A DNA stretch of 21,636 nucleotides, taken from a virus. The notes under the pieces are model-generated. The model ran no database searches. It was given only the letters and a program-made list of their open reading frames with translations, and was not told the DNA's origin. This document shows positions 8,064 to 21,636 of the stretch, in pieces. Positions within the stretch are counted from its first letter, which is position 1. Every line of letters starts with the position of its first letter. The translations under genes and the position numbers were made by a program. The stretch lies in the IMG/VR virus record IMGVR_UViG_3300027793_001680, positions 1 through 21,636 of that record. One strand, 5' to 3'.

Positions 8064-8073
8064 GGAAAAATAA

Positions 8074-8867: not shown

Positions 8868-8870
8868 AGT

Positions 8871-9566: not shown

Positions 9567-10150
9567 TGAGTCACGTTGAAAACTTTTTAATCCTAGCAAG
9601 TACTACAGCTAATCTAATCCATACGACCGACATTGAAGATATCATTCAAGATCTTATTGAAGTTCGAGATAATGGTGGTAGAGTCTTTGTTCTAGGTGCT
9701 GGTGGTTCTGCCGCTAATGCATCCCACATGGTAAATGATCTTCGTAAGCTTTGTAATATTGAAGCTTATTGCCCTACTGATAATGTTTCGGAACTTACAG
9801 CTCGAGTCAATGATGAAGGTTGGGAAAGTTTCTTTGTTAAATGGCTAGCTGTTTCCAAGTTTAATAGTAAAGATGCTCTATTCATTCTGTCAGTTGGCGG
9901 TGGTGATGCTGAAAGAAAGATCTCTGTAAATCTAATCCGAGCTACTGATTATGCTCATGTACATGGCGGTAGAGTCATGGCTATTGTAGGTAAGCAAAAT
10001 GGATATGTTGCTAGATATGCTGAATCCTGCTGCGTGATTCCAGAATCCGAGCCAAGTCTAGTGACTCCAATGAGCGAAGCATTCCAGGGTATTGTCTGGC
10101 ATTGCATTGTTTCTCATCCACTTCTACAAGTTCAAAAAACCACATGGTAA
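9566..10150 (+). CDS. SIS-domain sugar isomerase, GmhA (phosphoheptose isomerase)-like, 194 aa
   Basis: The protein is one SIS domain of GmhA length. It has VFVLGAGGSAANASHMVND (40-58), matching the phosphate-binding GNGGSAADAxHF segment of sedoheptulose-7-phosphate isomerases with Asn replaced by Ala in the first loop, then ELTARVNDEGWES (76-88), the second SIS loop LSVGGGD, and the C-terminal EAFQGIVWHCIVSHPLL. GmhA converts sedoheptulose 7-phosphate to D-glycero-D-manno-heptose 7-phosphate, the first step of ADP- or GDP-heptose synthesis. A dedicated heptose kinase is not seen in this window. It overlaps the upstream gene by one base (TAATG). Confidence 0.88.
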   Translation: MSHVENFLILASTTANLIHTTDIEDIIQDLIEVRDNGGRVFVLGAGGSAANASHMVNDLRKLCNIEAYCPTDNVSELTARVNDEGWESFFVKWLAVSKFNSKDALFILSVGGGDAERKISVNLIRATDYAHVHGGRVMAIVGKQNGYVARYAESCCVIPESEPSLVTPMSEAFQGIVWHCIVSHPLLQVQKTTW

Positions 10151-10167
10151 AATAGGATATATAATTA

Positions 10168-11166: not shown

Positions 11167-11195
11167 TTGACAACATATGAGAAGTGTGGTATATT
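11167..11195 (+). promoter_or_regulatory. Strong sigma70-like promoter TTGACA-N17-TATATT
   Basis: TTGACA (11167-11172), a 17-bp spacer and TATATT (11190-11195) directly follow the glycosyltransferase stop. This is the only near-consensus intergenic promoter seen in the left arm. The -10 ends five bases before the ATG at 11201, so the transcript would begin at or next to the start codon, leaving no room for a Shine-Dalgarno. Confidence 0.75.
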
Positions 11196-11200
11196 AAACT

Positions 11201-11578
11201 ATGACTCAAGCCAATAATGTTGTCCTATTTCCTACTCGGAATAATAAGTACAATGGACCTCAAACCATTGAGGAAGTTGATGAGTCGATGGATATGGTAA
11301 AACAGTTCCATATTCAGGAAACTATCGAGACTATTATACCATCACTTTTTGACCAGCTACATGTAGCTGGATTTCAACCAGATGAAGATGATGACGATAT
11401 TCTTAAGCATTCAGCAATGGTAGTAGAATCAATCCGTTCTCTACTTTGCATGCTCAAAGGTATTGACCATCCACTTCAACTGATTGCGGATAATCTTTTT
11501 ATTCAAACTTCTGATGGACTAGCAGTTTCCGATAAAGTTAAAATCATTATCACTCCAAAAGAAGGAAAGGGTGAATAA
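11201..11578 (+). CDS. Acidic phage protein of unknown function, 125 aa
   Basis: This 125-residue frame begins with the first ATG after the promoter at 11167-11195 and may be translated from a leaderless transcript. The next in-frame methionines lie about 29 codons in. After VVLFPTRNN near the N-terminus, the protein is helical (EEVDESMDMVKQFHIQETIETII), has an Asp-rich loop (DEDDDDI, near 61-67) and ends in a beta-like segment (VSDKVKIIITPKE). Small phage proteins with an N-terminal VVxFP motif occur in T4-like cyanophages, but their role is unknown to me. It lies directly upstream of the split RNase H gene. Confidence 0.8.
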   Translation: MTQANNVVLFPTRNNKYNGPQTIEEVDESMDMVKQFHIQETIETIIPSLFDQLHVAGFQPDEDDDDILKHSAMVVESIRSLLCMLKGIDHPLQLIADNLFIQTSDGLAVSDKVKIIITPKEGKGE

Positions 11579-11583
11579 CCCTT
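11561..11583 (+). promoter_or_regulatory. Shine-Dalgarno followed by a bridging hairpin before rnh
   Basis: GAAGGA (11561-11566) is too far (23 bases) from the ATG at 11590 to act directly. Between them AAGGGT (11567-11572) pairs with ACCCTT (11578-11583) around a GAATA loop. Folding leaves six A residues between stem and ATG, an ideal effective spacing. T4 genes 25 and 38 are known to use such a hairpin to bring a distant Shine-Dalgarno to the start. The upstream gene's stop lies in the loop and arm. Confidence 0.55.
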
Positions 11584-11589
11584 AAAAAA

Positions 11590-12093
11590 ATGCTTATCAT
11601 TGATTTTTCCCAGGTGATGCTTTCCAATATCATGGTTCAGATTGGTAATCATACCAATGCTCAACTAGATGAAAATATGGTAAGACATATGGTATTAAAT
11701 TCAATCCGTATGTACAAGACCAAGTTTGGTCCAGAATATGGTGAAGTTATTATTGCATGTGACGCCACAAACTACTGGCGCCGCACACTCTTTCCTTATT
11801 ACAAGGCTAATCGTAAGAAGTCACAGGCTGCTTCCGAACTAGACTGGAAAGCAATCTTTGAATGTCTCAACAAGATTCGTGATGAACTTCTGACGGTATT
11901 TCCATATCGTGTCATTCGAGTGGATACAGCAGAAGCCGATGATATCATCGGCACACTTGCCAAGGAGTTTGGTAATACTTCAGAGAAGCTTCTAATCATC
12001 TCGGGCGACAAGGACATGGTACAATTAATGGTTTATGATAATGTAACCATTTATCAACCAGTAAAAAATGTCTTAATCAAGAGGAAAGATTGA
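11590..12093 (+). CDS. rnh: T4-type RNase H/5'-3' exonuclease, N-terminal part (gene split by insertion)
   Basis: This is the N-terminal (PIN/FEN catalytic) half of a T4 RNase H-like exonuclease, which removes RNA primers and flaps from lagging-strand DNA. Metal-site residues are D5 in IIDFSQ, D58 in ACDATNYWRR, E115/D117/D118 in AEADDIIGTLA, and D140/D142 in ISGDKD. Homology to T4 RNase H runs to about VTIYQPVKN (152-160). The last seven residues (VLIKRKD) come from inserted DNA and end at a stop 24 bases into the insertion. The remaining part of the enzyme is encoded from 12783. Whether the two halves assemble or the gene is dead is unresolved; both frames are intact, which favours function. 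Confidence 0.88.
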   Translation: MLIIDFSQVMLSNIMVQIGNHTNAQLDENMVRHMVLNSIRMYKTKFGPEYGEVIIACDATNYWRRTLFPYYKANRKKSQAASELDWKAIFECLNKIRDELLTVFPYRVIRVDTAEADDIIGTLAKEFGNTSEKLLIISGDKDMVQLMVYDNVTIYQPVKNVLIKRKD

Positions 12094-12720
12094 CCAACCA
12101 GTTGTATTTTCTCTTCTTTCTTTGTGCACAAGTTTGGTTGCCTTAATGCTTATTGATCCTATGGTACCGCCGTTATTTTCATTTAAACATCTATATAAAG
12201 TTTTAAAACTTATATTTTTCTCTTCACAAAAAGAAACAAGAGTACCATGAATAAAATATTCTTTGCCATTAGGATCAATAAGTTTTACTTTTCTTGCATG
12301 TACATTACCAGCACCGCTATGTCTTTTCTTCATGGCAAGCTTATGATTTTCAACTTGTAGAGGGTTAAACCATTCTTCCATTTTCTTATTTTTTCGATGA
12401 TAACCTGGATTATCTTCCCCATGATATACAGGGAACTTTCCACCACCTTCACATATATTATAACCATCTTCTATAGTATTAAATAACTTAATAAAATGAT
12501 TTTCCATAACTTTCAATGTATATTCAGAATCATCATTTTCATATAATATTTCTTTTTCAATATTTTCAAATCCATATTTTCTAATAGCACAATGAAGTTT
12601 TGTTTTACCACCATTTAAAGCACTATAATGATGATCATGCCATCTTTTATTTACGCTATTTACTGTAAATCCTACATATTTTTTGCCATTGGGAAATGTT
12701 AATGCATATATAAAAGCCAT
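12073..12720 (-). CDS. GIY-YIG homing endonuclease inserted in rnh, 215 aa
   Basis: The N-terminal catalytic domain reads FIYALTFPNGKKYVGFT (3-19), with the GIY-equivalent IY and YVG, R26 in NKRWHDHH, the metal-binding E73 in VMENHFIKLF, and GYNICEGGG (86-94). A short NUMOD3-like linker follows (GEDNPGYHRK, near 100-109). The C-terminal half holds a DNA-recognition module: KLIDPNGKEYFIHG, then a helix-turn-helix-like stretch (FCEEKNISFKTLYRCL), ending with NTTGWSI, as in several phage GIY-YIG homing enzymes. It lies antisense within the rnh gene, so it probably cuts intact rnh alleles and spreads by repair. Its 3' end overlaps the N-terminal rnh frame by 21 bases. A Shine-Dalgarno AAAGG lies 10 bases upstream. 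Confidence 0.92.
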   Translation of the reverse strand: MAFIYALTFPNGKKYVGFTVNSVNKRWHDHHYSALNGGKTKLHCAIRKYGFENIEKEILYENDDSEYTLKVMENHFIKLFNTIEDGYNICEGGGKFPVYHGEDNPGYHRKNKKMEEWFNPLQVENHKLAMKKRHSGAGNVHARKVKLIDPNGKEYFIHGTLVSFCEEKNISFKTLYRCLNENNGGTIGSISIKATKLVHKERRENTTGWSIFPLD

Positions 12721-12750
12721 TTTATTATACCTTTAAGTTGTTATATTTGT

Positions 12751-12764
12751 TATTTATATTTATA
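12751..12764 (-). promoter_or_regulatory. Two overlapping T4-late promoter octamers (TATAAATA) on the minus strand
   Basis: On the minus strand the sequence TATAAATATAAATA contains two exact copies of the T4 late promoter octamer sharing two bases (forward TATTTATA at 12751-12758 and 12757-12764). The downstream copy would start transcription near 12745, about 25 bases before the endonuclease ATG and ahead of its AAAGG. The region is AT-rich, so chance is possible, but the position is right. Confidence 0.5.
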
Positions 12765-12782
12765 AGGATTTCCACCAAAATC

Positions 12783-13175
12783 ATGCGCTACACAACAAAA
12801 TATATTACTAAATCGGAAGCAGAAAAGTTCCTTAAGGAACATATCATTAAGGGTGATTCTGGTGATGGTATTCCAAACTTCCTATCAGATGATAACTGTC
12901 TTGTGGTTGGTACTCGCCAGAAGCCAGTAACACAAAAGAAACTGGATGAATACCTCAAGAAGAATCCAGAGGAGTTTTGCCAGACTCTTACTCAACTTCG
13001 TAACTATAAGCGTAATCAGCAGCTTATTGATCTATCTAAGATTCCAGAAACTGTAATGGAATCCATTATGGTAGAATATAATGCTCAGGCTAATAAAAAA
13101 GCACCAGAGCTAATGAACTATTTCATCCAACACAAACTCAAGAATCTAATGGAACACATCAATGAATATGTTTGA
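12783..13175 (+). CDS. rnh: T4-type RNase H/5'-3' exonuclease, C-terminal part (gene split by insertion)
   Basis: This 130-residue frame continues the T4 RNase H-like protein. FLKEHIIKGDSGDGIPNFLSDD (16-37) matches the helix-hairpin-helix region of FEN/5' nucleases with the conserved GDxGDGIPN; D25 or D28 would be a remaining metal ligand. The rest is helical and ends HKLKNLMEHINEY, like the T4 tail (KLTNSINEF). The frame stays open upstream to about 12738, but those residues come from the insertion. ATG 12783 is the first ATG; AAGGA lies 14 bases before it, which is long. Separate translation could give a partner for the N-terminal half. Confidence 0.85.
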   Translation: MRYTTKYITKSEAEKFLKEHIIKGDSGDGIPNFLSDDNCLVVGTRQKPVTQKKLDEYLKKNPEEFCQTLTQLRNYKRNQQLIDLSKIPETVMESIMVEYNAQANKKAPELMNYFIQHKLKNLMEHINEYV

Positions 13176-13188
13176 GGAAAAAGTCTAA

Positions 13189-13602
13189 ATGAAGCTAGGA
13201 GTTGCAGAAATACTTGAAAAGACTTCAGGTATGACTAGTCGATCTGATAGGATCAGAATGCTTCAAGAGAATAATAGCGTAGCACTTCAGACAGTACTAC
13301 GTGGTGCATTTGATCCTGCTATTAAATGGCTTCTTCCAGAAGGTGATCCGCCATATAAGCCAAATGATCTAGTGGATCAGGAACATATCTTCTATCATGA
13401 ATGTCGTAAGATGTATCTATTCATTGAAGGTGGTAATCCAGATCTTAAGCAACTTCGACGTGAAGCACTATTTGTTCAACTACTTGAAACTGTATCAGCC
13501 AAAGATGCTAAAGTGCTTCTAGCTATTAAAGACAAACATCTACCATACCCTGGCATTACGCCAGACATTATTCAGGAGGCATTTCCAGGTCTACTTCCAT
13601 GA
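13189..13602 (+). CDS. DUF6433-like T4-superfamily protein, 137 aa
   Basis: The protein fits a conserved family of T4-like phages, especially cyanophages (DUF6433). It has VAEILEKTSGMTSRSDRIRMLQENNSVALQTVLRGAFDP near the N-terminus, PEGDPPYKPND (50-60), then REALFVQLLETVSAKDAKVLLAIKDKHLPYPGIT and a final IIQEAFPGLLP. It is largely helical, with no catalytic motif. The function is unknown, but in relatives it sits near replication and recombination genes, as here beside rnh and phoH. It starts 13 bases after the rnh C-terminal stop. The start sits after GAGGAAAAAGTCTAA. Confidence 0.88.
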   Translation: MKLGVAEILEKTSGMTSRSDRIRMLQENNSVALQTVLRGAFDPAIKWLLPEGDPPYKPNDLVDQEHIFYHECRKMYLFIEGGNPDLKQLRREALFVQLLETVSAKDAKVLLAIKDKHLPYPGITPDIIQEAFPGLLP

Positions 13603-13769
13603 GCAAAAGCAAGAAAATCTATAAAGATCATGATGGTTATGATGAAGATGAATATTATGAGAATGTTCTAAGAGATCGAGAACGACGAAAGAACAAACGA
13701 CTTGCTAATGCTCTACGTTCCAAAAATATCAATGACCTAATGCGTCTAGAAGAAGATGAGGAAGACTAA
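13599..13769 (+). CDS. Small highly charged protein, 56 aa
   Basis: The ATG overlaps the upstream stop (ATGA) and the stop overlaps the next start (TAATG), an exact fit between two genes. The 56-residue product is dominated by charged residues: an Asp/Glu/Tyr-rich N-terminal part (DGYDEDEYYENV), a central basic helix (RDRERRKNKRLANALRSKN) and an acidic end (RLEEDEED). Similar short charged proteins follow DUF6433 genes in other T4-like phages as far as I recall. The function is unknown; interaction with nucleic acid or protein through charge is only a guess. AGGAGGC lies 20 bases upstream, with TACTTCC nearer the start. Confidence 0.72.
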   Translation: MSKSKKIYKDHDGYDEDEYYENVLRDRERRKNKRLANALRSKNINDLMRLEEDEED

Positions 13770-14017
13770 TGCCAACTTACATGTTCAAAGATATAAATAC
13801 GGATGAGGAGCAAGAGCTCTTCATGTCAATAACTGAAAGGGACAAGTACTTAGAGGATAATCCACATATTATTCAACTTGTTCACGGTGCACCTTCTATC
13901 GGGGATCCAATCAGACTAGGTCTAAAGAAACCCGATGATGCTTTTAGAGACAGACTAAAAGATATTAAAAAGCATCATTCTAGGGGTATTACCAAAAGCT
14001 CGATAAACACATTCTAG
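13769..14017 (+). CDS. Conserved T4-like small protein with FmdB-like start, 82 aa
   Basis: The 82-residue protein begins MPTYMFKDINTDEEQELFMSI, like the first strands of FmdB-type zinc-ribbon proteins, but it has no cysteines, so no zinc site can form. It continues ERDKYLEDNPHIIQLVHGAPSIGDPIRLGLKKPDDAFRDRLKDIKK, a pattern I recognise from small proteins of T4-like phages. The role is unknown. It overlaps the previous gene by one base and ends 36 bases before phoH. A TATAAATA string inside the gene (13792-13799) matches the late promoter octamer but lies within codons and has no obvious target start. Confidence 0.78.
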   Translation: MPTYMFKDINTDEEQELFMSITERDKYLEDNPHIIQLVHGAPSIGDPIRLGLKKPDDAFRDRLKDIKKHHSRGITKSSINTF

Positions 14018-14053
14018 GTGTAATCGTGAACTATACTAGTAAAGGTTCACTGC

Positions 14054-14797
14054 ATGTCAGCACCGCCTAAGAAGAGACTAAGTCGTAAAGAAAAAAGACA
14101 AATCAGAGAGAACAATGGAGCAATAGGAGAAAAGATTAACTTTAATCTTCAAGATGTTTATCCTTTGACTGAAAATCAAAAGCTTACATTTAATGCTTAT
14201 GGTCAAGGTAAAAATCTAATGCTTCATGGTATTGCCGGTACTGGAAAAAGTTATATTTCCATGTATCTGGCACTCAATCAAATACTAAGTGAAGATTCTC
14301 CCTATAAAAAACTTTATATTGTAAGATCGGTAGTACCGACAAGAGATATGGGTTTCTTGCCAGGAAATAATAAGGAAAAAGCTAAAGTTTATGAAGCTCC
14401 ATATTATGCAATTTGTTCCGAACTCTTTAAACGTGGTGATGCCTATGACTATCTAAAACAAAAGAATATAATCGAGTTTATTTCTACCTCATTCATTAGA
14501 GGTATTACTCTAAATGACTGTATCATTGTAGTAGACGAGATGCAAAATGCGTCACTCCACGAACTTGACTCAGTCATTACACGTGTAGGAAAGAACTGCA
14601 AGATTATATTCTCTGGTGACTTTACACAGTCTGATTTCACCAATGAAAAAGAAAAGAATGGTCTACCTCAGTTTATGAAGATTATTCGTGGTATAAAGAG
14701 CTTTAAGTTTGTTGAGTTTAATAAGAATGATATTTTGAGGAGTGATCTAGTACGTGACTATATTATTGAAAAAGACCGACTCGGGATTGCAGCCTGA
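14054..14797 (+). CDS. phoH: PhoH-family P-loop ATPase
   Basis: The 247-residue PhoH-like protein has Walker A GIAGTGKS (59-66), a basic N-terminal extension (PPKKRLSRKEKRQIREN), TENQKL (39-44) resembling the Q-motif, VRSVVPTRDMGFLPG (90-104), Walker B IIVVDEMQN (157-165) and a sensor-like IIFSGDFTQSD (184-194). PhoH proteins share the superfamily 1 helicase ATPase core; they are widespread in T4-like marine and rhizobial phages, but their role in infection is not settled, with RNA-related functions proposed. AAAGG lies about nine bases upstream of the ATG. The 3' end overlaps the next reading frame. Confidence 0.95.
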   Translation: MSAPPKKRLSRKEKRQIRENNGAIGEKINFNLQDVYPLTENQKLTFNAYGQGKNLMLHGIAGTGKSYISMYLALNQILSEDSPYKKLYIVRSVVPTRDMGFLPGNNKEKAKVYEAPYYAICSELFKRGDAYDYLKQKNIIEFISTSFIRGITLNDCIIVVDEMQNASLHELDSVITRVGKNCKIIFSGDFTQSDFTNEKEKNGLPQFMKIIRGIKSFKFVEFNKNDILRSDLVRDYIIEKDRLGIAA

Positions 14798-15011
14798 TTG
14801 GAGTCCTATTGAAACTTATGTTCCTAGAGAGCATGGGTTTATTATAGTTGCTAATGAACATAGAAAATGGATTAGATTTGGTAGACTATATCCTGGATTG
14901 AATCGGTGGTATTATTCAGGTACCACCGAACAGGCTCAATACTCAGAAGGTCATGATGATAAGGATAAGCCTACGCATTGGGCTCCAATGTTTAAAGCAC
15001 CATGGGATTAA
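14754..15011 (+). CDS. Small Trp-rich phage protein, DUF551-like, up to 85 aa
   Basis: The open frame runs from a GTG at 14754 (44 bases inside phoH), with alternative TTG starts at 14766 and 14787. The last gives a product beginning QPDWSPIETY and is attractive because WxPIET is the usual N-terminus of DUF551-type phage proteins. The body contains VANEHRKWIRFGRLYPGLNRWYYSGT and ends THWAPMFKAPWD. It is rich in Trp and Tyr, probably a small beta protein. No function is known. It ends three bases before the nuclease gene. The true start cannot be fixed from sequence alone. Confidence 0.75.
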   Translation: MTILLKKTDSGLQPDWSPIETYVPREHGFIIVANEHRKWIRFGRLYPGLNRWYYSGTTEQAQYSEGHDDKDKPTHWAPMFKAPWD

Positions 15012-15014
15012 ATA

Positions 15015-15653
15015 ATGTTTAAACATGAACTACTAAATCTAGCACCACTAGAGCGTACTGAAAAAGACGGAAAGAGATACTACATCACACCAGATGGAGT
15101 ATTTCCTTCCGTCACTACAGTATTAGGGGAGAAGTTAGATAAGTCTGGGCTAGAACTCTGGAAAGCTCGAGTCGGTGCAGCAGAAGTCGAAAAAGTCTCT
15201 AGACTAGCAGCTAATAGAGGTACCGCAATCCATAAACTTTGTGAGGATTATCTCATGAATGTGGAGATTGATTCTCGTAAAGTCATGCCATTTAATATGA
15301 TGATGTTCAATACCATCAAACCTATTCTTGCTAAAAATGTAAGTAAGGTCTATGGCATTGAATCTATGCTTTATTCAAAAGTATTAAAGGCTGCAGGTAC
15401 ATCGGATCTATTGGCAGAATATAATGGAATCAACTCCATTGTTGACTTCAAGACTTCCAAAAAAGAGAAAAAGGAAGAGTGGATTCAGAACTACTTCATT
15501 CAAGCCACAACTTATTCTATTATGGCTGAAGAGTTGACTGACCTTAAGTTCCCACAAATAGTTATTATCATAGCAAATGATGATTATGAAACTCAGGTTT
15601 TTGTCAAGAATAGAGATGACTATAAAGAAAGAGTCTTAGAAATCTTTGGATAA
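15015..15653 (+). CDS. PD-(D/E)XK nuclease, RecB/Cas4-like exonuclease, 212 aa
   Basis: All landmarks of a RecB/Cas4-type PD-(D/E)XK nuclease are present in order: RGTAIHKL (68-75) with H73, E116 in YGIESMLY, GTSDLLAEY (128-136) with D131, IVDFKTSKK (142-150) with D144 and K146, and QNYFIQATTYSIM (158-170) with Q163. T4-like phages encode similar proteins annotated as exonucleases, probably used in recombination, DNA processing or host DNA degradation. There is no Cys cluster, so no Fe-S domain as in Cas4. It lies directly before the holin-like gene. Its final codons overlap the late-promoter-like GATAAATA, so transcription of the next gene may start here. Confidence 0.9.
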   Translation: MFKHELLNLAPLERTEKDGKRYYITPDGVFPSVTTVLGEKLDKSGLELWKARVGAAEVEKVSRLAANRGTAIHKLCEDYLMNVEIDSRKVMPFNMMMFNTIKPILAKNVSKVYGIESMLYSKVLKAAGTSDLLAEYNGINSIVDFKTSKKEKKEEWIQNYFIQATTYSIMAEELTDLKFPQIVIIIANDDYETQVFVKNRDDYKERVLEIFG

Positions 15654-15656
15654 ATA
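15649..15656 (+). promoter_or_regulatory. T4-late-like promoter octamer GATAAATA
   Basis: GATAAATA differs by one base from T4's TATAAATA and overlaps the nuclease stop codon. Using T4 spacing, transcription would begin near 15662, inside the 5' arm of the next hairpin (15658-15665), leaving only about four of eight base pairs. The geometry is the same as at 5399-5427. Confidence 0.45.
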
Positions 15657-15657
15657 A

Positions 15658-15692
15658 GTTCGGGCAGCGAAGGAGAGTTTATATGTCCGAAC
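15658..15692 (+). promoter_or_regulatory. Hairpin that hides the start of the holin-like gene
   Basis: GTTCGGGC (15658-15665) pairs with GTCCGAAC (15685-15692), eight pairs including one G-U. The 19-base loop holds the Shine-Dalgarno AAGGAG (15670-15675), and the G of the ATG (15683-15685) is in the stem. Read-through transcripts should be translated poorly, while late transcripts starting within the arm would escape. Such control would suit a lysis protein. Confidence 0.65.
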
Positions 15693-16087
15693 ACAAAGAC
15701 TCTATCCGCAAACTCGAAACCGAAGCACAAATTGAGCTCAAAAGAATAGAGGCAAACTCCACATCTAAGGAAGTTGCCTCTAAAGTGATAGGTAAAACAG
15801 CGATCCCCTGGATCGTTCTTCTTGTCTGTGTTGGTGTAGGTGCTAGTGCCTATCTTGAAAAAGAAGCACTTACGGCCGTTATAGGTCTAGTCTCTACAGC
15901 AGTTATGGCACTTATAGCTATGGTTACCGGTATTACTGGTAAACAAGAAAAAGAAGAAAAACCTGAAATGAGAATATTAGAGCAACTCGTGAATACTCTT
16001 AAAGAAAAAGAACCTATGGAAGTCCATGTGGACAATGATAAAGTTATCATTAGCAAAGGTGAGAGCAAAACGGTTGTGAATAAATAA
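15683..16087 (+). CDS. Two-TM membrane protein, holin-like, 134 aa
   Basis: The protein has a charged N-terminal helix (1-38), then two strongly hydrophobic segments at about 41-58 (IPWIVLLVCVGVGASAYL) and 63-84, separated by a short turn with EKE. A long charged C-terminal tail follows (KQEKEEKPEMRILEQ to the end). Two membrane passes with both ends cytoplasmic and a charged C-terminus resemble class II holins; it could also be another inner-membrane phage protein. Hidden translation start, late-promoter-like octamer and following terminator all fit a lysis gene. No endolysin is adjacent, though the window contains the rlpA-like cell-wall enzyme at 6434. Confidence 0.75.
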   Translation: MSEHKDSIRKLETEAQIELKRIEANSTSKEVASKVIGKTAIPWIVLLVCVGVGASAYLEKEALTAVIGLVSTAVMALIAMVTGITGKQEKEEKPEMRILEQLVNTLKEKEPMEVHVDNDKVIISKGESKTVVNK

Positions 16088-16089
16088 AG

Positions 16090-16118
16090 AAAAGGGGAGC
16101 TTAATGGCTCCCCTTTTT
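16090..16118. terminator. Bidirectional intrinsic terminator
   Basis: GGGGAGC (16094-16100), loop TTAATG, GCTCCCC (16107-16113), with AAAA before and TTTTT after. The stem is seven GC-rich pairs extended by A-T pairs. It lies between the ends of convergent genes (16087 on plus, 16121 on minus), so it can end transcription from both sides. Confidence 0.92.
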
Positions 16119-16120
16119 AG

Positions 16121-16402
16121 TTAACTAATCCATTCAACCTTATATCTAAACTTCACATTGGAAGAGGTACCTTTACCTAGAGTCTTATTAATGCTATGTC
16201 TGAGTTCATTGGATGCTAGTCGGATTGCTTCATCGCCAGATTTAGCAAAGACAACAGACTCTTCCTTTGCAATATCAACTTCTTCATATGCAGTACAGAG
16301 AACTTTGTACTTCTTTTTACCTTTCATGTTCTTCATCATATTTGTGAAGTAACCATGAGGCTTATTGTTCCAGATATCTTCTAGATCTTGTTTAGTAAGC
16401 AT
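16121..16402 (-). CDS. Small phage protein of unknown function, 93 aa
   Basis: This minus-strand gene is the last of a leftward operon. Its ATG (16400-16402) follows AGGAG six bases upstream, a strong Shine-Dalgarno that overlaps the stop of the neighbouring gene. The 93-residue product has a basic helical N-terminal part (DIWNNKPHGYFTNMMKNMKGKKK), followed by a strand-rich YKVLCTAYEEVDIAKEESVVFAKSGDEAIRLASNELRHSI and a C-terminal FRYKVEWIS. The YKVLCTAYEE...VFAKSGDEA arrangement suggests a small alpha/beta fold. No family is recognised. Transcription ends at the shared terminator. Confidence 0.78.
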   Translation of the reverse strand: MLTKQDLEDIWNNKPHGYFTNMMKNMKGKKKYKVLCTAYEEVDIAKEESVVFAKSGDEAIRLASNELRHSINKTLGKGTSSNVKFRYKVEWIS

Positions 16403-16410
16403 GATGACTC

Positions 16411-16701
16411 CTACGAGAAGTTAACAGCAAATGAAGCTTTGTATTCCATATAGCACTCAGGCCATTCTTCCATAGCCTTTCGGAGAGCATCTGTAATCAG
16501 AAATGGTGCACCTTCAAAGTCAAAATAATAACCATCATATACAGTTGCACCTTGAGCATAGTATGGATTAAACTCTTTACTGAACTTTTGAAGAGCCTTT
16601 GCTTTATTTAAAGCAAACGTAAAAAGTACCATATAAGTTTGACCTTCACCAGTAGCACCATAAGAGCATGCTACAGTAAAGAAGTTTGGTCTATTAATCA
16701 T
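16411..16701 (-). CDS. Small phage protein of unknown function, 96 aa
   Basis: Although the frame stays open to 16752, the ATG at 16699-16701 is preceded by AAGGA seven bases upstream, so the start is placed there; the longer form would overlap the ATPase gene. The 96-residue product starts MINRPNFFTVACSYGATGEGQTYMVLFTFA and continues KALQKFSKEFNPYYAQGATVYDGYYFDFEGAPFLIT, then a helix (DALRKAMEEW) and an aromatic C-terminus. It looks like a small alpha/beta protein; no motif is recognised. It lies between the AAA ATPase and the 93-aa gene in one operon. Confidence 0.78.
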   Translation of the reverse strand: MINRPNFFTVACSYGATGEGQTYMVLFTFALNKAKALQKFSKEFNPYYAQGATVYDGYYFDFEGAPFLITDALRKAMEEWPECYMEYKASFAVNFS

Positions 16702-16712: not shown

Positions 16713-17588
16713 TTAGTTCTTGCAGCAGGTGACAATGGCACGCTTCATCCAACGCCCATCATCCTTGCGGCGAAGGGTGCCGATCTTGAGAGCCATACGG
16801 AGAGACAGCTCACGGAGACGAGAGGCATTCTTCTCGATGAACTGAACCACATCGTCCTGAGCATCATCTGAAAGACCGATGTTCTTGAGCAGACCCTGCT
16901 TGACCACCTGCCGAATACGGATGAGGTAGTCACGCTGAGTCTTCATTGCCAGGTCGATATAGTGGGCACGAGACACCAGAGCCGACAGATGCGGTGCAAT
17001 CTTGGAGCCACGGTCGATCATGGCATCGAAGTCGTAGTTGGTGATGAACACGACCGTGCCACGGAACTCGAAGCTCTTGGGCATACGCTCGGCAGTCTCT
17101 TCGTCGATCAGCGAACCCTCGGTCATGTACGAGATGATGCGCTTGTCGGTAGTGTCCAGAGCCGCCTTGAGCAGACCGATTGCAGTCTCATCAAGAAACA
17201 CATCGTCGGCGTCGTCAAACACGAGCACCGAACCAGCGGAACGGTGCTGATACAGCAGCTTGTAGAGCGCCGGAGCCTTGACGTAACCCTTCACGATCCG
17301 ATGGGACGTGGCATTGGGATCCCAAGCCTCGAGCGCCTTCTCGACGGTGAAGGACTTGCCGAGACCGGCAGGACCGGACACGATCAGCGCACGGACGTCA
17401 CCGTCGATTGCAGCATTGGTCATATCGGACAGGATCTCGAAGCGATCGGTCAGCTTCTGCTCGATCTCTTCGTCGGTCTCAACAATGACGGGCTCGGTGG
17501 GCTGAGTCACGTTCATGATCTTAGCGATCTTATCCGTCTTAGCGGTACGGGTCTTGCGGTAGCCGTTCTTGGGGATGCCACGGGGCAT
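16713..17588 (-). CDS. AAA-family ATPase, 291 aa
   Basis: Walker A is GPAGLGKS (72-79), Walker B VLVFDDAD (121-128), and a sensor-1-like asparagine lies in VVFITNYDFDAM (N184). The C-terminal region is helical, as an AAA lid. The N-terminus is basic (MPRGIPKNGYRKTRTAK), possibly for nucleic-acid contact. Similar ATPases occur in T4-like phages with no established role; loader or remodelling functions are possible. The gene is GC-ending in its codons, unlike the left arm. AAAGGA lies upstream of the ATG, and a TTGACT promoter lies at 17618-17646. It is the main gene next to the repeat-rich region, which may be relevant to replication. Confidence 0.9.
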   Translation of the reverse strand: MPRGIPKNGYRKTRTAKTDKIAKIMNVTQPTEPVIVETDEEIEQKLTDRFEILSDMTNAAIDGDVRALIVSGPAGLGKSFTVEKALEAWDPNATSHRIVKGYVKAPALYKLLYQHRSAGSVLVFDDADDVFLDETAIGLLKAALDTTDKRIISYMTEGSLIDEETAERMPKSFEFRGTVVFITNYDFDAMIDRGSKIAPHLSALVSRAHYIDLAMKTQRDYLIRIRQVVKQGLLKNIGLSDDAQDDVVQFIEKNASRLRELSLRMALKIGTLRRKDDGRWMKRAIVTCCKN

Positions 17589-17617
17589 GTCAGTGTCCTT
17601 TGTAAGTGTATAGTCAG

Positions 17618-17646
17618 ACCTTATCCCATTCTGGGATTAAAGTCAA
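17618..17646 (-). promoter_or_regulatory. Minus-strand sigma70-like promoter with inverted repeat, for the AAA ATPase operon
   Basis: Reading leftwards: TTGACT (17646-17641), 17-bp spacer TTAATCCCAGAATGGGA, then TAAGGT (17623-17618), a weak -10. The spacer contains ATCCCA and TGGGAT around GAA, an inverted repeat placed like an operator. The -35 overlaps the stop of the upstream small gene. The TTGACTTTAATC start is shared with promoters at 18498 and 18792. Confidence 0.6.
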
Positions 17647-17759
17647 CGGTTATCTTCGAGGGTGGAGAGGTATTCTTCGTACTCCGCCAGATCGGCGGCA
17701 GTCGGCTCGTAAGCCTCCTCGCAGGAGACCTCGAGGTCGAAATCGTCGGGGTAGGTCAT
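17643..17759 (-). CDS. Small acidic protein, 38 aa
   Basis: On the minus strand the frame reads from ATG at 17757-17759 to TGA at 17643-17645. The product, MTYPDDFDLEVSCEEAYE followed by a Glu-rich helix ending in TLEDNR, is strongly acidic. A longer 44-residue form from ATG 17777 is possible, but GAGGTG six bases before the inner ATG gives the proper Shine-Dalgarno. The promoter at 17784-17812 would start its transcript at about the outer ATG. The leader matches that of the divergent gene at 18258, which supports both starts. Codons are GC-rich. The function is unknown. Confidence 0.72.
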   Translation of the reverse strand: MTYPDDFDLEVSCEEAYEPTAADLAEYEEYLSTLEDNR

Positions 17760-17783
17760 GAGCACCTCATTCATCATAGGTCT

Positions 17784-17812
17784 CTTATACCACCGATCAC
17801 TTTAAAAGTCAA
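17784..17812 (-). promoter_or_regulatory. Minus-strand sigma70-like promoter TTGACT-N17-TATAAG
   Basis: Leftward TTGACT (17812-17807), a 17-bp spacer and TATAAG (17789-17784). The transcript would start about 17777 with the leader ATGATGAATGAGG, which also begins the transcript of the divergent gene at 18258. It drives the 38-aa gene and possibly the ATPase operon. Confidence 0.72.
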
Positions 17813-17819
17813 CCAAACA

Positions 17820-18195
17820 AAATCAATGGGTTAGCCAGGTTGATATCCTAACCCATTGAAATCCTTATAAAAACTTTTTTCGGTCGTCCAAAACTTTTTT
17901 CAGCCCACCTCGAGGTCGAGCCCTTCTCGAGGTACTAAGATGGTAAAACCTAATCTTTTCAATGGGTTAGCCGTTTTATAAAAGTCAATGATATCAATGG
18001 GTTAGGTGCTCACGACGTTTCTCGGCGACCTAAGCCACTGTGGATGGGTTATCCTACCGCTAGGATCGCTTAGGACGATCAGGGACGTTTTTAGCACCTA
18101 TCCCATTGATATCATTAGGGCTCAAACTTTTTTGAAAAAAATGCAGATTTTTTCCTCAATGATATCAATGACTTAAGCCTAACCCATTGACAAAG
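17820..18195. repeat. Iteron-like intergenic region: 12-bp repeats, GATATC elements and A/T tracts
   Basis: No gene is seen between 17760 and 18257. Copies of TCAATGGGTTAG occur forward at 17823, 17959 and 17994, and inverted (CTAACCCATTGA) at 17848, 18179 and, with one mismatch, 18098. GATATC occurs four times (near 17842, 17990, 18108 and 18161), three of them inside AATGATATCAAT or its complement. Homopolymeric tracts (AAACTTTTTT) recur near 17870, 17891 and 18124. TGTGGATGG (18039-18047) resembles a DnaA box imperfectly. This combination is typical of replication origins or multi-site repressor regions. Confidence 0.8.
17987..18116. repeat. 130-bp nested inverted repeat
   Basis: The 24-bp outer arms 17987-18010 and 18093-18116 are inverted copies with a single mismatch. 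Within the 82-bp interior, CCTAAGC (18029-18035) pairs with GCTTAGG (18068-18074), and ATCCTA (18051-18056) pairs with TAGGAT (18061-18066) around CCGC. The three levels are nested, so the strand could extrude as a cruciform or, if transcribed, form a long hairpin. Confidence 0.82.
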
Positions 18196-18201
18196 CAGGG
18201 G

Positions 18202-18230
18202 TTTACTTTTATCTCATATGGGGTTATAAG
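18202..18230 (+). promoter_or_regulatory. Sigma70-like promoter TTTACT-N17-TATAAG
   Basis: TTTACT (18202-18207), 17-bp spacer, TATAAG (18225-18230). The transcript would begin about 18237 with ATGATGAATGAGG, the same leader as the divergent 38-aa gene. A repeat copy ending in TTGACA (18187-18192) sits just upstream. Confidence 0.65.
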
Positions 18231-18257
18231 GTACATATGATGAATGAGGAACTGAAC

Positions 18258-18488
18258 ATGACCAACCTCCCCACCTACCTGCCCAACCGCACGGACATCC
18301 GCATCTCCGCCGAAGGCGACTACTACGACGGCAAGTTCACCATCGAGGTGGAGTCCTACTGGAACATGTCGGAGAAGTCCTGGGCTATGCCCGCCTGGGA
18401 GGAAATGGGCTACCCCGACCTCCACCACCACTTCGACTCGGTCGAGGAGGCGCTGGCTGCCCTCCGGGCGGATTATCTGATCGACTGA
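18258..18488 (+). CDS. Small protein of unknown function, 76 aa
   Basis: The frame is open from ATG 18237, but GAGGA (18246-18250) seven bases before the ATG at 18258 marks the inner codon as the start. The product is MTNLPTYLPNRTDIRISAEG, then a beta-like region with DYYDGKFTIEVESYWNMSEKSW, and a C-terminal helix with HHHFDSVEEALAALRADYL. It is acidic and aromatic, with no known domain. Codons are strongly GC-ending. It is the first gene of the rightward set and is followed within 10 bases by another promoter, so it is probably its own small transcription unit. Confidence 0.75.
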   Translation: MTNLPTYLPNRTDIRISAEGDYYDGKFTIEVESYWNMSEKSWAMPAWEEMGYPDLHHHFDSVEEALAALRADYLID

Positions 18489-18497
18489 CTTTCCCTA

Positions 18498-18526
18498 TTG
18501 ACTTTAATCTCAGATTAAGATATAAG
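18498..18526 (+). promoter_or_regulatory. Sigma70-like promoter with palindromic operator in the spacer
   Basis: TTGACT (18498-18503), 17-bp spacer, TATAAG (18521-18526). The spacer begins with TTAATCTCAGATTAA (18504-18518), a perfect palindrome of 7-bp arms around a central C. A repressor bound there would block RNA polymerase. It would drive the 74-aa gene at 18563. Confidence 0.75.
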
Positions 18527-18562
18527 TTAAGTCATACCAACGACACCAACGAAAGGCCTACC

Positions 18563-18787
18563 ATGACCGTGTTCTCCGGCGACAAGACCAAGACCAACGT
18601 GACCGTGGCGTCCGATGGGCGCTACCACACTTCCAGGGACAAGTACCGCAAGGGTGACCTGCGGAAGACCAACCTCGAGGAGTTCGGCACCACCTCGTTC
18701 GGCACCGATGGGTACTACGATGGCGCCCCCGGCCGCAAGAAGCGCAAGAAGTGGAACCGGACGGAAAAGCCGTCTTATCTCGACTGA
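18563..18787 (+). CDS. Small basic protein of unknown function, 74 aa
   Basis: ATG 18563 follows GAAAGG nine bases upstream. The 74-residue product is Lys/Arg/Thr/Gly-rich: GDKTKTNVTVASDGRYHTSRDKYRKGDL, then a Gly/Tyr-rich centre (FGTDGYYDGAPG) and a basic end (RKKRKKWNRTEK). It appears disordered and could bind nucleic acid or a host protein; this is inferred from charge alone. Codons are GC-ending. It has its own promoter and is immediately followed by a second promoter of the same type. A competing frame across the gene is a shadow. Confidence 0.72.
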   Translation: MTVFSGDKTKTNVTVASDGRYHTSRDKYRKGDLRKTNLEEFGTTSFGTDGYYDGAPGRKKRKKWNRTEKPSYLD

Positions 18788-18791
18788 GGGG

Positions 18792-18820
18792 TTGACTTTA
18801 ATCTCAGATTAGGTTATAGG
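18792..18820 (+). promoter_or_regulatory. Sigma70-like promoter with palindromic spacer, second copy
   Basis: TTGACT (18792-18797), 17-bp spacer, TATAGG (18815-18820). The spacer has TAATCTCAGATTA, the 13-bp core of the palindrome at 18504. Downstream, GGTTAAGTTATA also resembles the stretch after the 18498 promoter (AGTTAAGTCATA), so the two are duplicates of one cassette. Confidence 0.72.
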
Positions 18821-18847
18821 TTAAGTTATAACAAGGAGACTACCGAT

Positions 18848-19021
18848 ATGGATATCTCGACCGTTCTGTCCCGCATGTACGCCTTCGCCAAGACCACCAA
18901 GGACGATGTGGCCTCCAATGAGGTTGCTCGAGTCGCTGACCGTCTGGCTCACCAGGGTCCGTTTGAGGCTCAGCTGACCAACGCTGAGATGACTGTCATT
19001 GCCCGCTTTGTCGGTTCATAA
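18848..19021 (+). CDS. Small protein of unknown function, 57 aa
   Basis: ATG 18848 follows AAGGAG nine bases upstream and runs to TAA 19019-19021. The 57-residue product starts MDISTVLSRMYAFAKTTKDD, is helical throughout and ends MTVIARFVGS. The composition is balanced, with moderately hydrophobic helices, so it may be a small helical bundle. No family is recognised. The gene sits between two promoters and uses GC-ending codons, like its neighbours. Confidence 0.72.
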   Translation: MDISTVLSRMYAFAKTTKDDVASNEVARVADRLAHQGPFEAQLTNAEMTVIARFVGS

Positions 19022-19027
19022 AACCTA

Positions 19028-19055
19028 TTGACATTTACCCCAGACTTGATATAAT
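19028..19055 (+). promoter_or_regulatory. Consensus-like sigma70 promoter TTGACA-N16-TATAAT
   Basis: TTGACA (19028-19033), 16-bp spacer, TATAAT (19050-19055), both hexamers perfect. It starts seven bases after the previous stop and drives the tetrapeptide-repeat gene at 19088. Confidence 0.85.
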
Positions 19056-19087
19056 GGTTCATGACCGAATAAGGATGGTATAAGGTA

Positions 19088-19267
19088 ATGAATAAAGTCG
19101 AGAATCAAGTCAGGAATCAAGTCTTGGATCAAGTCTGGAACAAAGGCTGGAATCAAGTCTTGGATCAAGTCAGGAATCAAGTCTTGGATCAAGTCTGGGA
19201 TCAAGGTAAGAATCAAGTCTGGGTTCAAGTCAGGAATCAAGTCTGGGATCAAGTCTGGGATCAAGAA
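19088..19267 (+). repeat. Fifteen degenerate 12-bp tandem repeats
   Basis: Units close to TGGAATCAAGTC follow without interruption from the start codon to the last sense codon. Variation falls mainly in the first and fifth positions (TGG/AGG/TTG and AAT/GAT). The in-phase unit length allows gain or loss of copies without frameshift, so copy number may vary between related phages. Confidence 0.9.
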
Positions 19268-19270
19268 TGA
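19088..19270 (+). CDS. Protein made entirely of tetrapeptide repeats, 60 aa
   Basis: The frame from ATG 19088 to TGA 19268-19270 consists of exactly 15 units of four residues, consensus [W/R/L]-[N/D]-Q-V, starting MNKV-ENQV-RNQV-LDQV and ending WDQV-WDQE. It could form a coiled or solenoid structure with Val and the aromatic/Arg positions on separate faces, or be unstructured. Because the DNA unit is 12 bp, other frames on both strands are open too, so coding is not proven by openness. The perfect promoter at 19028, AAGG before the ATG and overlap with the next gene (ATGATG) favour this frame. The function is unknown. Confidence 0.6.
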   Translation: MNKVENQVRNQVLDQVWNKGWNQVLDQVRNQVLDQVWDQGKNQVWVQVRNQVWDQVWDQE

Positions 19271-19452
19271 TGTATCTGGTAAGTTTTACTAACTTTGGTT
19301 ATACTAAAGACTTTGACTCTAAGGAAAAAGCTCTTATCTATATGGAAAGAGCTTGTCTTGAGTCTGTTCTTATGACTGAGAAGGGTGAAGTTCTTGGTGG
19401 ATTCTCTCCCATCTCTGGTTACAAAAAAATGGTTGACTTTAATCTGACTTGA
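19267..19452 (+). CDS. Small protein of unknown function, 61 aa
   Basis: The ATG at 19267 overlaps the stop of the repeat gene (ATGATG), and a second in-frame ATG follows directly. The 61-residue product, MMYLVSFTNFGYTKDFDSKEKALIYMERAC and onward to an end at VDFNLT, looks like a small alpha/beta domain: strand, then helix (SKEKALIYMERACLESV), then hairpin (TEKGEVLGGFSP). Such short beta-alpha-beta proteins are common in phage early regions. Its last codons contain the -35 of the next promoter, an economical overlap. Codons are less GC-rich than in the genes at 18258-19021. Confidence 0.7.
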   Translation: MMYLVSFTNFGYTKDFDSKEKALIYMERACLESVLMTEKGEVLGGFSPISGYKKMVDFNLT

Positions 19453-19460
19453 TATAAAAT
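19433..19460 (+). promoter_or_regulatory. Sigma70-like promoter TTGACT-N16-TAAAAT
   Basis: TTGACT (19433-19438), 16-bp spacer, TAAAAT (19455-19460); TATAAA with a shorter spacer is the alternative. The TTGACTTTAATCT start is identical to that at 18498 and 18792, but the palindrome is broken (CTGACTTG replaces CAGATTA). It drives the DUF932 gene. Confidence 0.7.
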
Positions 19461-19488
19461 CCGACTATCAACACAAAAGAGGAAGACA

Positions 19489-20442
19489 ATGGCTCACAAT
19501 ATCGAAATGATCAACGGTAAGGCTCAGATGGCATATGCTGGTGCTAAGCCTTGGCACGGTCTTGGCACGGAAGTTCCTGCCGACCTGACTCCCGTCCAGA
19601 TGCTTGAGGCTGCAGGTCTCAACTGGGAGGTGGAGAAGATCAAGGCTTATGCTAAGGTTGGTGGTAAGAACATCGACGTTGGTCGCTCTGCTCTTGTTCG
19701 TAAGATGGACAATAAGATCCTGGATATCGTGTCGAACGACTGGAATCCGGTGCAGAACTCTGAGGCGTTTGAGTTCTTCAACGACTTCATCGCCGAGGGT
19801 GACATGGAAATGCACACCGCCGGCTCTCTGGCCGATGGTCAGATTGTCTGGGCTCTGGCAAAGGTTAAGGACGGGTTCGACCTGTTCGGTGGTGATGAAG
19901 TCGAGTCCTACCTGCACTTCACCAACTTCCACAAGTACGGCTTCTCCACCGACGTTCGGTTCACTCCGATCCGTGTGGTCTGCAACAATACTCTTACGCT
20001 CTCTCTTAACACCAAGGTAGAGCGCTTTGTCAAGATCAGCCATCGCCGTGAGTTCAATGGTGATAACGTGAAGCTGATGCTTGGTATTGCCCAGGAGAAG
20101 CTTGCCAAGTACAAGGAAATGGCAGCATTCCTTGGCACCAAGCGCTACACCAACGAGAACATGGTTGACTACTTCAAGCGTGTGTTCCCGGTTGCTGGTG
20201 GTCCTGATGCTAAGAAGGAACTGAGCAAGAACGCTAAGGTTGCTCTGTCCGTGGTCGATACTCAGCCTGGTGCTGACTTTGCCCGTGGTTCTTTCTGGCA
20301 GCTGTTTAACACGGTGACCTATACCGCCGATCATCTTCTTGGTCGTACTCAGGATTCTCGACTGCAGTCTGCTTGGTACGGCAATGGTCGTAACATGAAG
20401 ACCAAGGCTCTGGAGACTGCTTTAGAGATGGCAAACGCCTAA
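19489..20442 (+). CDS. DUF932 family (phage/plasmid-like) protein, 317 aa
   Basis: The 317-residue protein matches the phage/plasmid-like DUF932 family in order: PWHGLGTEVPADLTPVQMLEAAGLNWEVE (21-49), a strand-rich region, SALVRKMDNKILDIVSNDWNPVQNSEAFEFFND (67-99), HTAGSLADGQIVWALAKV (109-126), YLHFTNFHKYGFSTDVRFTPIRVVCNNTLTLSL (140-172), and a helical C-terminal half. Family members are common on phages, plasmids and integrative elements; their biochemical function is not established. GAGGAA lies upstream of the ATG, and promoter 19433 drives it. Codons are moderately GC-ending. An antisense open frame of similar length is a shadow. Confidence 0.93.
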   Translation: MAHNIEMINGKAQMAYAGAKPWHGLGTEVPADLTPVQMLEAAGLNWEVEKIKAYAKVGGKNIDVGRSALVRKMDNKILDIVSNDWNPVQNSEAFEFFNDFIAEGDMEMHTAGSLADGQIVWALAKVKDGFDLFGGDEVESYLHFTNFHKYGFSTDVRFTPIRVVCNNTLTLSLNTKVERFVKISHRREFNGDNVKLMLGIAQEKLAKYKEMAAFLGTKRYTNENMVDYFKRVFPVAGGPDAKKELSKNAKVALSVVDTQPGADFARGSFWQLFNTVTYTADHLLGRTQDSRLQSAWYGNGRNMKTKALETALEMANA

Positions 20443-20450
20443 AAAATAGG

Positions 20451-20479
20451 TTGACACAACTTCCACTTTGATATATAAC
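20451..20479 (+). promoter_or_regulatory. Sigma70-like promoter TTGACA-N17-TATAAC
   Basis: TTGACA (20451-20456), 17-bp spacer, TATAAC (20474-20479), nine bases after the DUF932 stop. It drives the 117-aa gene at 20513, with a leader of about 27 bases and a good Shine-Dalgarno (AAAGGAC). Confidence 0.78.
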
Positions 20480-20512
20480 TATACTTACCAAAACACAGAA
20501 AGGACTAAAAAC

Positions 20513-20866
20513 ATGAAGACTTTTACTCGTATGGCTGCCCAGGGTGACTTCCTCATTCTGCGGATCGACACTCTTCCTACAAACGTGGAGCGCATTGCTC
20601 CCAACGAGCGTAACCATATCGTGGTTGCCCATTCTGAAACTGGTCATGACCACGTGATGGTTGCTGATCGTGTGACTGCCTACAAGACCACTGGTACCAA
20701 GGACGTTGACCTCTACGAGATGTTCCTCTCCGTTGAGGCTCCTACGGAAATCAACCACCTTCGTTCCTTTGATACCCACGAGACTCTTCTGGTTCCTCCT
20801 GGTAACTACACTGTTCGCCGTCAGCGTGAATATGTTGCCGAGGGCTTCCGTCGGGCTCAGGACTAA
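20513..20866 (+). CDS. Conserved phage protein of unknown function, 117 aa
   Basis: The frame extends upstream to about 20468, but those codons lie in the promoter; AAAGGACT and the ATG at 20513 define the start. The 117-residue product reads MKTFTRMAAQGDFLILRIDTLP, then a region with HIVVAHSETGHDHVMVADRVTAYK, LRSFDTHETLLVPPGNYTVRRQREYV and a final AEGFRRAQD. The alternating beta pattern with several histidines (SETGHDHV, DTHE) suggests a small barrel that might bind metal. I have seen similar sequences beside DUF6745-type genes in phages and bacteria. No function is known. Confidence 0.82.
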   Translation: MKTFTRMAAQGDFLILRIDTLPTNVERIAPNERNHIVVAHSETGHDHVMVADRVTAYKTTGTKDVDLYEMFLSVEAPTEINHLRSFDTHETLLVPPGNYTVRRQREYVAEGFRRAQD

Positions 20867-20894
20867 CTCTTACACCTCTTCAGTCTGTCATTAA

Positions 20895-20900
20895 TATAAT
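20895..20900 (+). promoter_or_regulatory. Possible promoter -10 element TATAAT
   Basis: A perfect TATAAT lies 15 bases before the ATG at 20916. No good -35 is found at 16-18 bp (TTACAC at 20870 has a 19-bp spacer), so it would be weaker than its neighbours or need an activator. AGGAG follows for the next gene. Confidence 0.4.
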
Positions 20901-20915
20901 CTAGGAGTCTATACT

Positions 20916-21636
20916 ATGAAGAAGATCGACAAGCTTACTCCTGCTCAGGAAGCTATGCTAGAGGTCTATCGTGACAAGTGGATCAAGATCGGTCTGTCCA
21001 CCGACCGTGTTGATCCTGCACAGGCTGAAGAGGCTGTAAAGCTTCTGTATAAGTGCGGTGGTCTTAGTGCACCTGATAAGATCGTGTTTGCCAATGGCCC
21101 ACTTCATGCCAAGAAGATCCTTGGCGATCGGTCCGTGACTGAGAGCTGTGTTTATGGTTCTCATGAGGCCGCATGGCTTTCCTTCTATGACTTCATGCAG
21201 AATGAGGTTGGTATTGACCTTGAAGGTAAGCTTGATGGTCTCTGGGCTGTTGCCAAGACTTGCGGTTGGGTTTCCTGCTATGACACTCTAGCGGTTGTGC
21301 AGGATCGCCCAGTCCACATCAAGATGGATGAAGACAACCGACTGCATTCCGAGACTGGTCCTGCCATTCTCTATGCTGATGGGTTTGCCGTCTATGCTTG
21401 GCATGGTGTCCGTGTTCCTTCGGAATGGATTGAAAACAAGTCCAGTCTGACTGCTAAGATGGCACTGACTTGGGAAAACATGGAGCAGCGTCGAGCTGCT
21501 TGTGAAATCCTTGGTTGGGTTCATATCCTTGATGAACTTAATGCCACTGTGATTGACCAGGATGAGGATCCTCAGATCGGTACCCTTCTGGAGGTTGATA
21601 TTCCTGACATTGGTCGGGAGAAGTTCCTCAAGGTAC
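20916..21636 (+). CDS. DUF6745-like protein, 5' part (partial)
   Basis: ATG 20916, after AGGAG, opens a frame without stop to the window edge (240 codons). The first part is helical (MKKIDKLTPAQEAMLEVYRDKWIKIGLSTD), and later comes RPVHIKMDEDNRLHSETGPAILYADGFAVYAWHGVRVPSEWIEN, then ENMEQRRAACEILGW. This is the pattern of DUF6745: a degenerate hydrophilic D-x-x-x-R-L-H-S-x-x-GPA-x-x-Y-x-DG repeat followed by the W-x-GVxVP turn and an N-x-E-x-R-R helix. Proteins of this type occur in phages and bacteria, with no known activity. Its pairing with the preceding 117-aa gene may be conserved. Confidence 0.85.
   Translation, partial: MKKIDKLTPAQEAMLEVYRDKWIKIGLSTDRVDPAQAEEAVKLLYKCGGLSAPDKIVFANGPLHAKKILGDRSVTESCVYGSHEAAWLSFYDFMQNEVGIDLEGKLDGLWAVAKTCGWVSCYDTLAVVQDRPVHIKMDEDNRLHSETGPAILYADGFAVYAWHGVRVPSEWIENKSSLTAKMALTWENMEQRRAACEILGWVHILDELNATVIDQDEDPQIGTLLEVDIPDIGREKFLKV

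Follow-up and report, generated by a model that had tools for sequence, protein, structure and literature searches.

A seven-site repeat island between divergent genes of uncultured T4-like viruses resembles a hub of gene control more than an established replication origin

Introduction

What is the role of the repeat-rich gap at positions 17760-18257 of a 21,636-base fragment of an uncultured virus (IMG/VR record IMGVR_UViG_3300027793_001680)? The gap lies between two genes that diverge from it, and an earlier reading of the letters alone (hereafter, the original prediction) had proposed a replication origin opened by a repeat-binding protein. We examined the whole fragment, referred to below as the window, together with related loci in other viruses. 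The result favors, with a probability of roughly 0.6, a control island for early promoters in both directions, organized by a sequence-specific protein that probably bends DNA. The island has the look of a hub for gene control more than of a demonstrated replication origin, and it offers a concrete, testable arrangement through which a large T4-like phage, as yet uncultured, might activate its early genes.

Seven sites between two outward promoters

The exact 12-mer TCAATGGGTTAG was found five times in the window, at 17823-17834 (+, site S7), 17848-17859 (-, S6), 17959-17970 (+, S5), 17994-18005 (+, S4, with the extended form TCAATGATATCAATGGGTTAG), and 18179-18190 (-, S1). A copy with one mismatch, TCAATGGGATAG, is located at 18098-18109 (-, S3), and the variant TCAATGACTTAA at 18165-18176 (+, S2); the whole seven-site array spans 17823-18190. 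S6 faces S7 over 13 bp and S2 faces S1 over 2 bp, and the outermost sites S7 and S1 adjoin the -35 elements of a left and a right promoter, respectively. The original prediction had counted six 12-mers in both orientations, which correspond to the five exact copies and the one-mismatch copy; the orientations were correct and the seventh, variant copy had been overlooked. The 11-mer core had no copy with 0-1 mismatch elsewhere in the window outside 17760-18257, where two-mismatch matches alone were observed at about chance frequency. When the region was shuffled 200 times, the maximum number of copies of any 12-mer was two.

Subsequently, we describe the promoters. A site-to-promoter scan placed the left outward promoter, TTGACT-N17-TATAAG, at 17784-17812 (-; distance 9, spacer 17) and the right one, TTTACT-N17-TATAAG, at 18202-18230 (+; distance 10, spacer 17). 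Each is followed, about seven bases past the -10 element, by the leader ATGATGAATGAGG, which contains a Shine-Dalgarno-like GAGG; accordingly, the first ATG probably belongs to the leader and the true gene start is probably the ATG behind it. A generic sigma70 scan of the window did not list these two promoters because it demands T at the last -10 position, which is G here. Across the islands described below, TTGACT-N17-TATAAA/G was found at both ends of each, the exception being the TTTACT of the right promoter of the window.

The distance between site and promoter was fixed. In 22 promoters leading into genes (in the window and in the contigs G001, G002, G004, G010, L022, and L028), most of them with the 17-bp spacing to the -10 element, the center of the outermost site lies 9 or 10 bp upstream of the -35 element, near position -45. 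Four of these 22 are promoters of G010 outside any island, each with one full site at the same 9-10 bp distance, and two of the four also carry a partial second copy. A fixed distance from -35 and -10 elements at several promoters is what a promoter-linked regulator site would show, and it is our strongest argument that the site serves as a regulator site in transcription.

Islands in relatives and phasing of the sites

A search of IMG/VR with the AAA ATPase encoded left of the island gave 80 loci. The nearest relatives of the ATPase (88-100% identity) retain the island wherever the contig extends that far. More distant loci (L014-L032) have degenerate islands with a shifted consensus, ATCAACCACTTAG, TTTCAACGACTTAG, or ATCAATACGTTAG, in the matching position upstream of the ATPase, and at most loci below about 60% identity the 11-mer was missing from the surroundings of the gene. 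The islands of relatives are about 450 bp long. In the window the whole island occupies 17778-18236 between the two divergent gene leaders, and its layout is conserved in L008, L012, G001 (three copies), G010, and L028. The three islands of the 60.9-kb contig G001 (at 8.6, 24.7, and 41.7 kb) are all flanked by small genes that diverge, and one island was found in the 82 kb of G002. The number per contig thus varies, and the island is conserved in uncultured T4-like viruses of bacteria.

Among named phages, the closest by the partial major capsid protein (gp23) of G001 are Stenotrophomonas phage DLP6 (81%) and Sinorhizobium phages phiM12 and phiN3 (78.7%). These three belong to the T4 superfamily like the island carriers, yet they have at most two scattered TCAATNNNTTAG per whole genome, and the array was absent from phiN3, phiM12, DLP6, Melnitz, HTVC008M, and C48C1.

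When oriented alike, the complete islands read S1(+) S2(-) S3(+), a central inverted repeat, and S4(-) S5(-) S6(+) S7(-). The center-to-center gaps are 28, 53, 118, 35, 97, and 39 bp in the window, 28, 53, 118, 35, 98, and 39 bp in L008, and 28, 44, 118, 35, 88, and 28 bp and 39, 53, 109, 35, 98, and 39 bp in two islands of G001. Each gap is therefore either constant or off by 9-11 bp, that is, one helical turn (28/39, 44/53, 109/118, 35, 88/97-98, and 28/39). The sites, their order and phasing, the fixed promoter distance, and the conservation can all be read in the sequences themselves.

The central inverted repeat of the window, with the core GGATGGGTTATC, covers 17987-18116 (arms 17987-18035 and 18068-18116, 80% paired); the element is conserved in the alignment, and in island a of G001 it is perfect over 18 bp. 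The recurring A/T tracts of the original prediction were also seen, as two AAAACTTTTTTC at 17870-17901, with similar tracts in relatives, and as CAAACTTTTTTGAAAAAAA...TTTTTT at 18123-18153. The extended logo of the site, AACCTAAT-(G/C)ATA-TCAATGGGTTAGC, is a near palindrome about GAT|ATC. The four GATATC elements previously pointed out are present in the region, and ten more occur elsewhere in the window; GATATC is either the center of the extended site or chance, and no separate element. An Rfam search of the window gave no structured-RNA family at the gathering threshold, and the one sub-threshold match in the region was to a eukaryotic snoRNA model.

The form of the site differs among phages and is repeated within one island: TACG in L028, TGGC in L021, and TGGT in L022. 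One site of the G001 island G001c is the variant TCAACCACTTAG. So that the choice of islands would not depend on the eye, facing site pairs with any spacer of 0-30 were sought in a scan of IMG/VR, and near-duplicates were removed. Sixteen of the 25 GGG-type pairs had a spacer of 13, three a spacer of 2, one a spacer of 24, and five another spacer; 20 of 25 at 2, 13, or 24 gives a binomial p of about 2e-16 under a flat expectation, which is a guide only, as it treats as independent pairs that are partly related by descent. Nine of the 17 GAC-type pairs had a spacer of 12-13. The conserved seven-site layout, the helical phasing, and the variants shared within one phage strongly support the action of a repeat-binding protein at the island. 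This part of the original prediction stood; its other part, the opening of an origin, gained no positive evidence from GC skew, the DnaA box, or the promoter-linked single sites, as described below.

Separately, perfect inverted repeats of 23-25 bp were observed in L015 (3884-3958 and 3965-4032) and L018 (3632-3705 and 3712-3782). Their arm sequences differ between these related phages, with both arms changed together, and some hold site-like sequence.

The extended motif in other phages and in bacteria

The exact 21-mer TCAATGATATCAATGGGTTAG was found in 23 IMG/VR stretches, many of them in contigs of very different GC content. The degenerate form TCAATGATATCAANNNNTTAG occurs in at least 119 stretches, some of which are chance or coding matches; among the matches listed, its N4 is TGAC in 24 and TGGG in 19, together 43 of 112. 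In 257 Gb of bacterial genomes, the form with N4 = TGRS gave only four matches. Almost every near-exact intergenic match in a named phage was to a phage of Proteobacteria; Bacillus phage G is an exception. A similarity search of named phages for the site pair returned a single weak match of 18 bp in CRP-212, and the literature on the 12-mer and its variant yielded unrelated papers only. Many phage stretches and near-absence from bacteria point to a shared phage DNA element that is seemingly undescribed.

Among the neighbors of the motif in unrelated phages, phrog_2 was the commonest family (11 of 128 neighbor proteins), and each of the four commonest families is a terminase subunit (raw counts, taken without a base rate). 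A dif-like sequence was located within 80 bp of the motif at 9 of 54 loci versus 5 of 2,700 random positions, some of the nine being related contigs. We tentatively suggest that TCAATGATATCAATG[A/G][C/G]TTAG, whose copies often face each other at a distance of about one helical turn, may be one phage-selected architectural element bound by one common factor. Many unrelated phages would use it for early promoters (the T4-like group), dif-type attachment sites, and packaging, and the seven-site island would be its most elaborate form.

The loci with an XerCD dif-like sequence near the 21-bp motif are L096, L108, L111, L119, L144, L151, L163, L169, and L175. A simple attP mark of a tyrosine integrase was considered for the motif and rejected, since PF00589 was present in only 3 of 43 unrelated motif records; no tRNA gene adjoined the motif at 43 loci. 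In Roseobacter phage CRP-212 (L236, 2820-2900), TCAATGATATCAATGGGTTA lies beside an apparent tRNA gene 3' end, near an integrase and directly upstream of a primase gene, and this locus may be an attachment site. Pseudomonas phage JBD30 (L237) has a 17-bp version of the motif, GATATCAATGACTTAGC, at 906-922, near the left end and intergenic between the divergent genes 171-830 and 1071-1427.

Proposed control island and candidate binder

We propose that one sequence-specific protein binds seven dyad-like sites with the extended consensus AACCTAAT-GATATC-AATGGGTTAGC. The two at the ends, centered about 45 bp upstream of where each divergent sigma70-type promoter starts transcription, would be able to touch RNA polymerase. 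The inner five, arranged in whole helical turns around the central inverted repeat, would fold the region into one complex, which would control both promoters jointly. The binding of a protein, the bending or looping of DNA, and the sign of the control are what we infer from this arrangement.

The most likely single candidate for the binder, at slightly less than even odds, is the integration host factor (IHF) of the host; otherwise it would be a dimeric regulator of phage or host. The consensus of IHF is WATCAANNNNTTR (PMC8942017). The site core ATCAA-N4-TTA fits this consensus. Furthermore, the dyad center of the site presumably falls where the pseudo-dyad of IHF would be. No phage-encoded HU/IHF gene was found in 68 phage records, many of them fragments, so that an IHF-type binder must be host-derived or encoded outside the fragments. 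IHF acts at integration and transcription sites, with lambda attP and the Mu early region as examples. It also acts at packaging sites, such as I1 of lambda cosB (PMC4856287). Action at all three kinds of site would account for the spread of the motif among phages. The island resembles IHF-organized control, attachment, and packaging regions of phages in the fit of its core to WATCAANNNNTTR, in bending sites laid out for one complex (predicted here), and in that other phages carry the extended motif close to terminase genes and dif-like sites. It differs in that the known examples have one to three IHF sites, whereas here seven near-identical sites with a fixed N4 stand partly in facing pairs and IHF binding is a prediction.

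Several points weigh against the proposed control island or its IHF version. Other promoters within the window have no site, and many of the aligned islands are orthologous or paralogous and hence not independent. A strict match to WATCAANNNNTTR was seen in only 3 of the 7 sites of the window, the others having TTCAA or GTCAA; among 54 sites, TCAA is preceded by A in 35 and by T in 17. The bases in the free N4 of IHF are strongly fixed (third base G in 47 of 54, fourth base G in 51 of 54), and N4 is biased both in the islands and in unrelated phages. In addition, facing pairs with 28 bp between centers look tight to us for two IHF dimers. IHF thus fits the consensus and the geometry, and the fixed N4 bases leave the assignment undecided.

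In a variant of the proposal, a classical dimeric regulator of phage or host, other than IHF, would use seven operators and looping to repress or switch both early promoters. The extended site, about 22 bp long and nearly palindromic, has fixed bases in both halves, the facing sites are helically phased, and the 68 phage records hold no HU/IHF gene, all of which are consistent with such a regulator. However, the same 21-bp motif occurs in phages without an obvious common regulator gene, which favors a host factor, and the gene clusters they share are mostly packaging genes or come from close relatives of the window. We regard this variant as possible but doubtful.

The question of a replication origin

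The island might also be one of several origins of a T4-like phage, where a repeat-binding protein opens the DNA beside early promoters, possibly via R-loops, either alone or besides promoter control. T4 initiates replication at several origins, some of which lie where transcription diverges, and its oriE has evenly spaced 12-nt repeats of undefined role and depends on an early promoter (PMC3016281). An origin role for the islands is therefore conceivable. In its favor, 60 kb can contain up to three islands, every one of them lies between divergent genes, and they hold A/T tracts as well as the central inverted repeat; CRP-212 and RHph_N65 also have a related motif just upstream of primase genes. 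The likeness to the oriE region (12-nt iterons, repEA/repEB) extends to the T4 superfamily, the clustered 12-nt repeats, the early promoter, and the divergent transcription, and the island is a comparison case for the unexplained oriE repeats. However, the T4 repeats are direct and even, whereas the island has inverted and direct copies in helical phase, mostly as facing pairs, rather than the multiple direct repeats of an iteron origin. It also has two outward promoters at a fixed site distance and several copies per genome, and its sequence and gene neighborhood are different.

Other observations argue against an origin as well or give it no support. GC skew, which the original prediction had proposed as a check, does not turn at the islands. 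The imperfect DnaA-like box it had noted, TGTGGATGG, a 7/9 match by eye, is kept in the nearest relatives only and lost in the others in the alignment. No initiator gene was recognized beside the repeats, where the nearby AAA ATPase is a relative of NrdC.10, and the island number per contig varies from one (G002) to three (G001). The original prediction had itself named a 12-mer found throughout the genome at promoters as grounds for giving up the origin, and we take the single sites at ordinary promoters of G010 to be that case. We consider an origin unlikely. Chance repeats or an assembly artefact, to which a change in GC content beside the island from about 37% to 55-58% might have pointed, can be dismissed, because no 12-mer attains five copies in the shuffles and independent contigs from other samples share the gene order, the GC pattern, and the island.

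Gene context of the island

The flanking genes do diverge, as had been claimed. The AAA ATPase had been taken for the next gene on the left, but an open reading frame (ORF) of 38 amino acids comes first (17643-17759, -; 44 amino acids and 17777 if the leader ATG is used, by translation). The ATPase lies behind it at 16713-17588 (-) with its own promoter (site at 17627); it belongs to phrog_1250 and is related to T4 NrdC.10 (BLASTP, 39% over 246 amino acids, E 2e-60), which is annotated as hypothetical. The first gene on the right, at 18258-18488 (+), encodes 76 amino acids.

From reading their translations, we take genes of the window to be nrdA, nrdB, thyX, a PhoH type, and other T4-like genes; the PhoH-type name was backed by BLAST as well. 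The jump in GC content lies near 16.7 kb, and codon use shifts sharply between 1-16700 and 16713-21635. GC content at third codon positions is 0.24-0.33 in the left genes (thyX, nrdA, nrdB, phoH) and 0.72 in the AAA ATPase; it reaches about 0.9 in the two genes that come first on the right side of the island and then drops to 0.49. The islands of G001-G004 and G010 likewise tend to lie within GC-rich gene clusters.

A second promoter type without the 12-mer was also observed. Its sequence is TTGACTTTAATCTNAGATTA, with a palindrome between -35 and -10, at 18498-18517, 18792-18811, 17627-17646 (-), and 19433-19452 of the window; two of these copies are exact and two near, where 0.04 would be expected. 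This is possibly an operator of another regulator.

The T4 RNase H-like gene (window 11590-13175) is interrupted by an AT-rich insert, the opposite strand of which carries a GIY-YIG-like endonuclease ORF (12073-12720); Rfam intron models gave nothing at the gathering threshold in the window, and the RNase H-like gene of G010 is uninterrupted (286 amino acids). Finally, small ORFs with NQVxDQV-type tandem repeats were found in the window (19088-19270), in L086 (2011-2307), and at several places in G010, with several per genome in relatives, and they showed a weak match to DUF4816.
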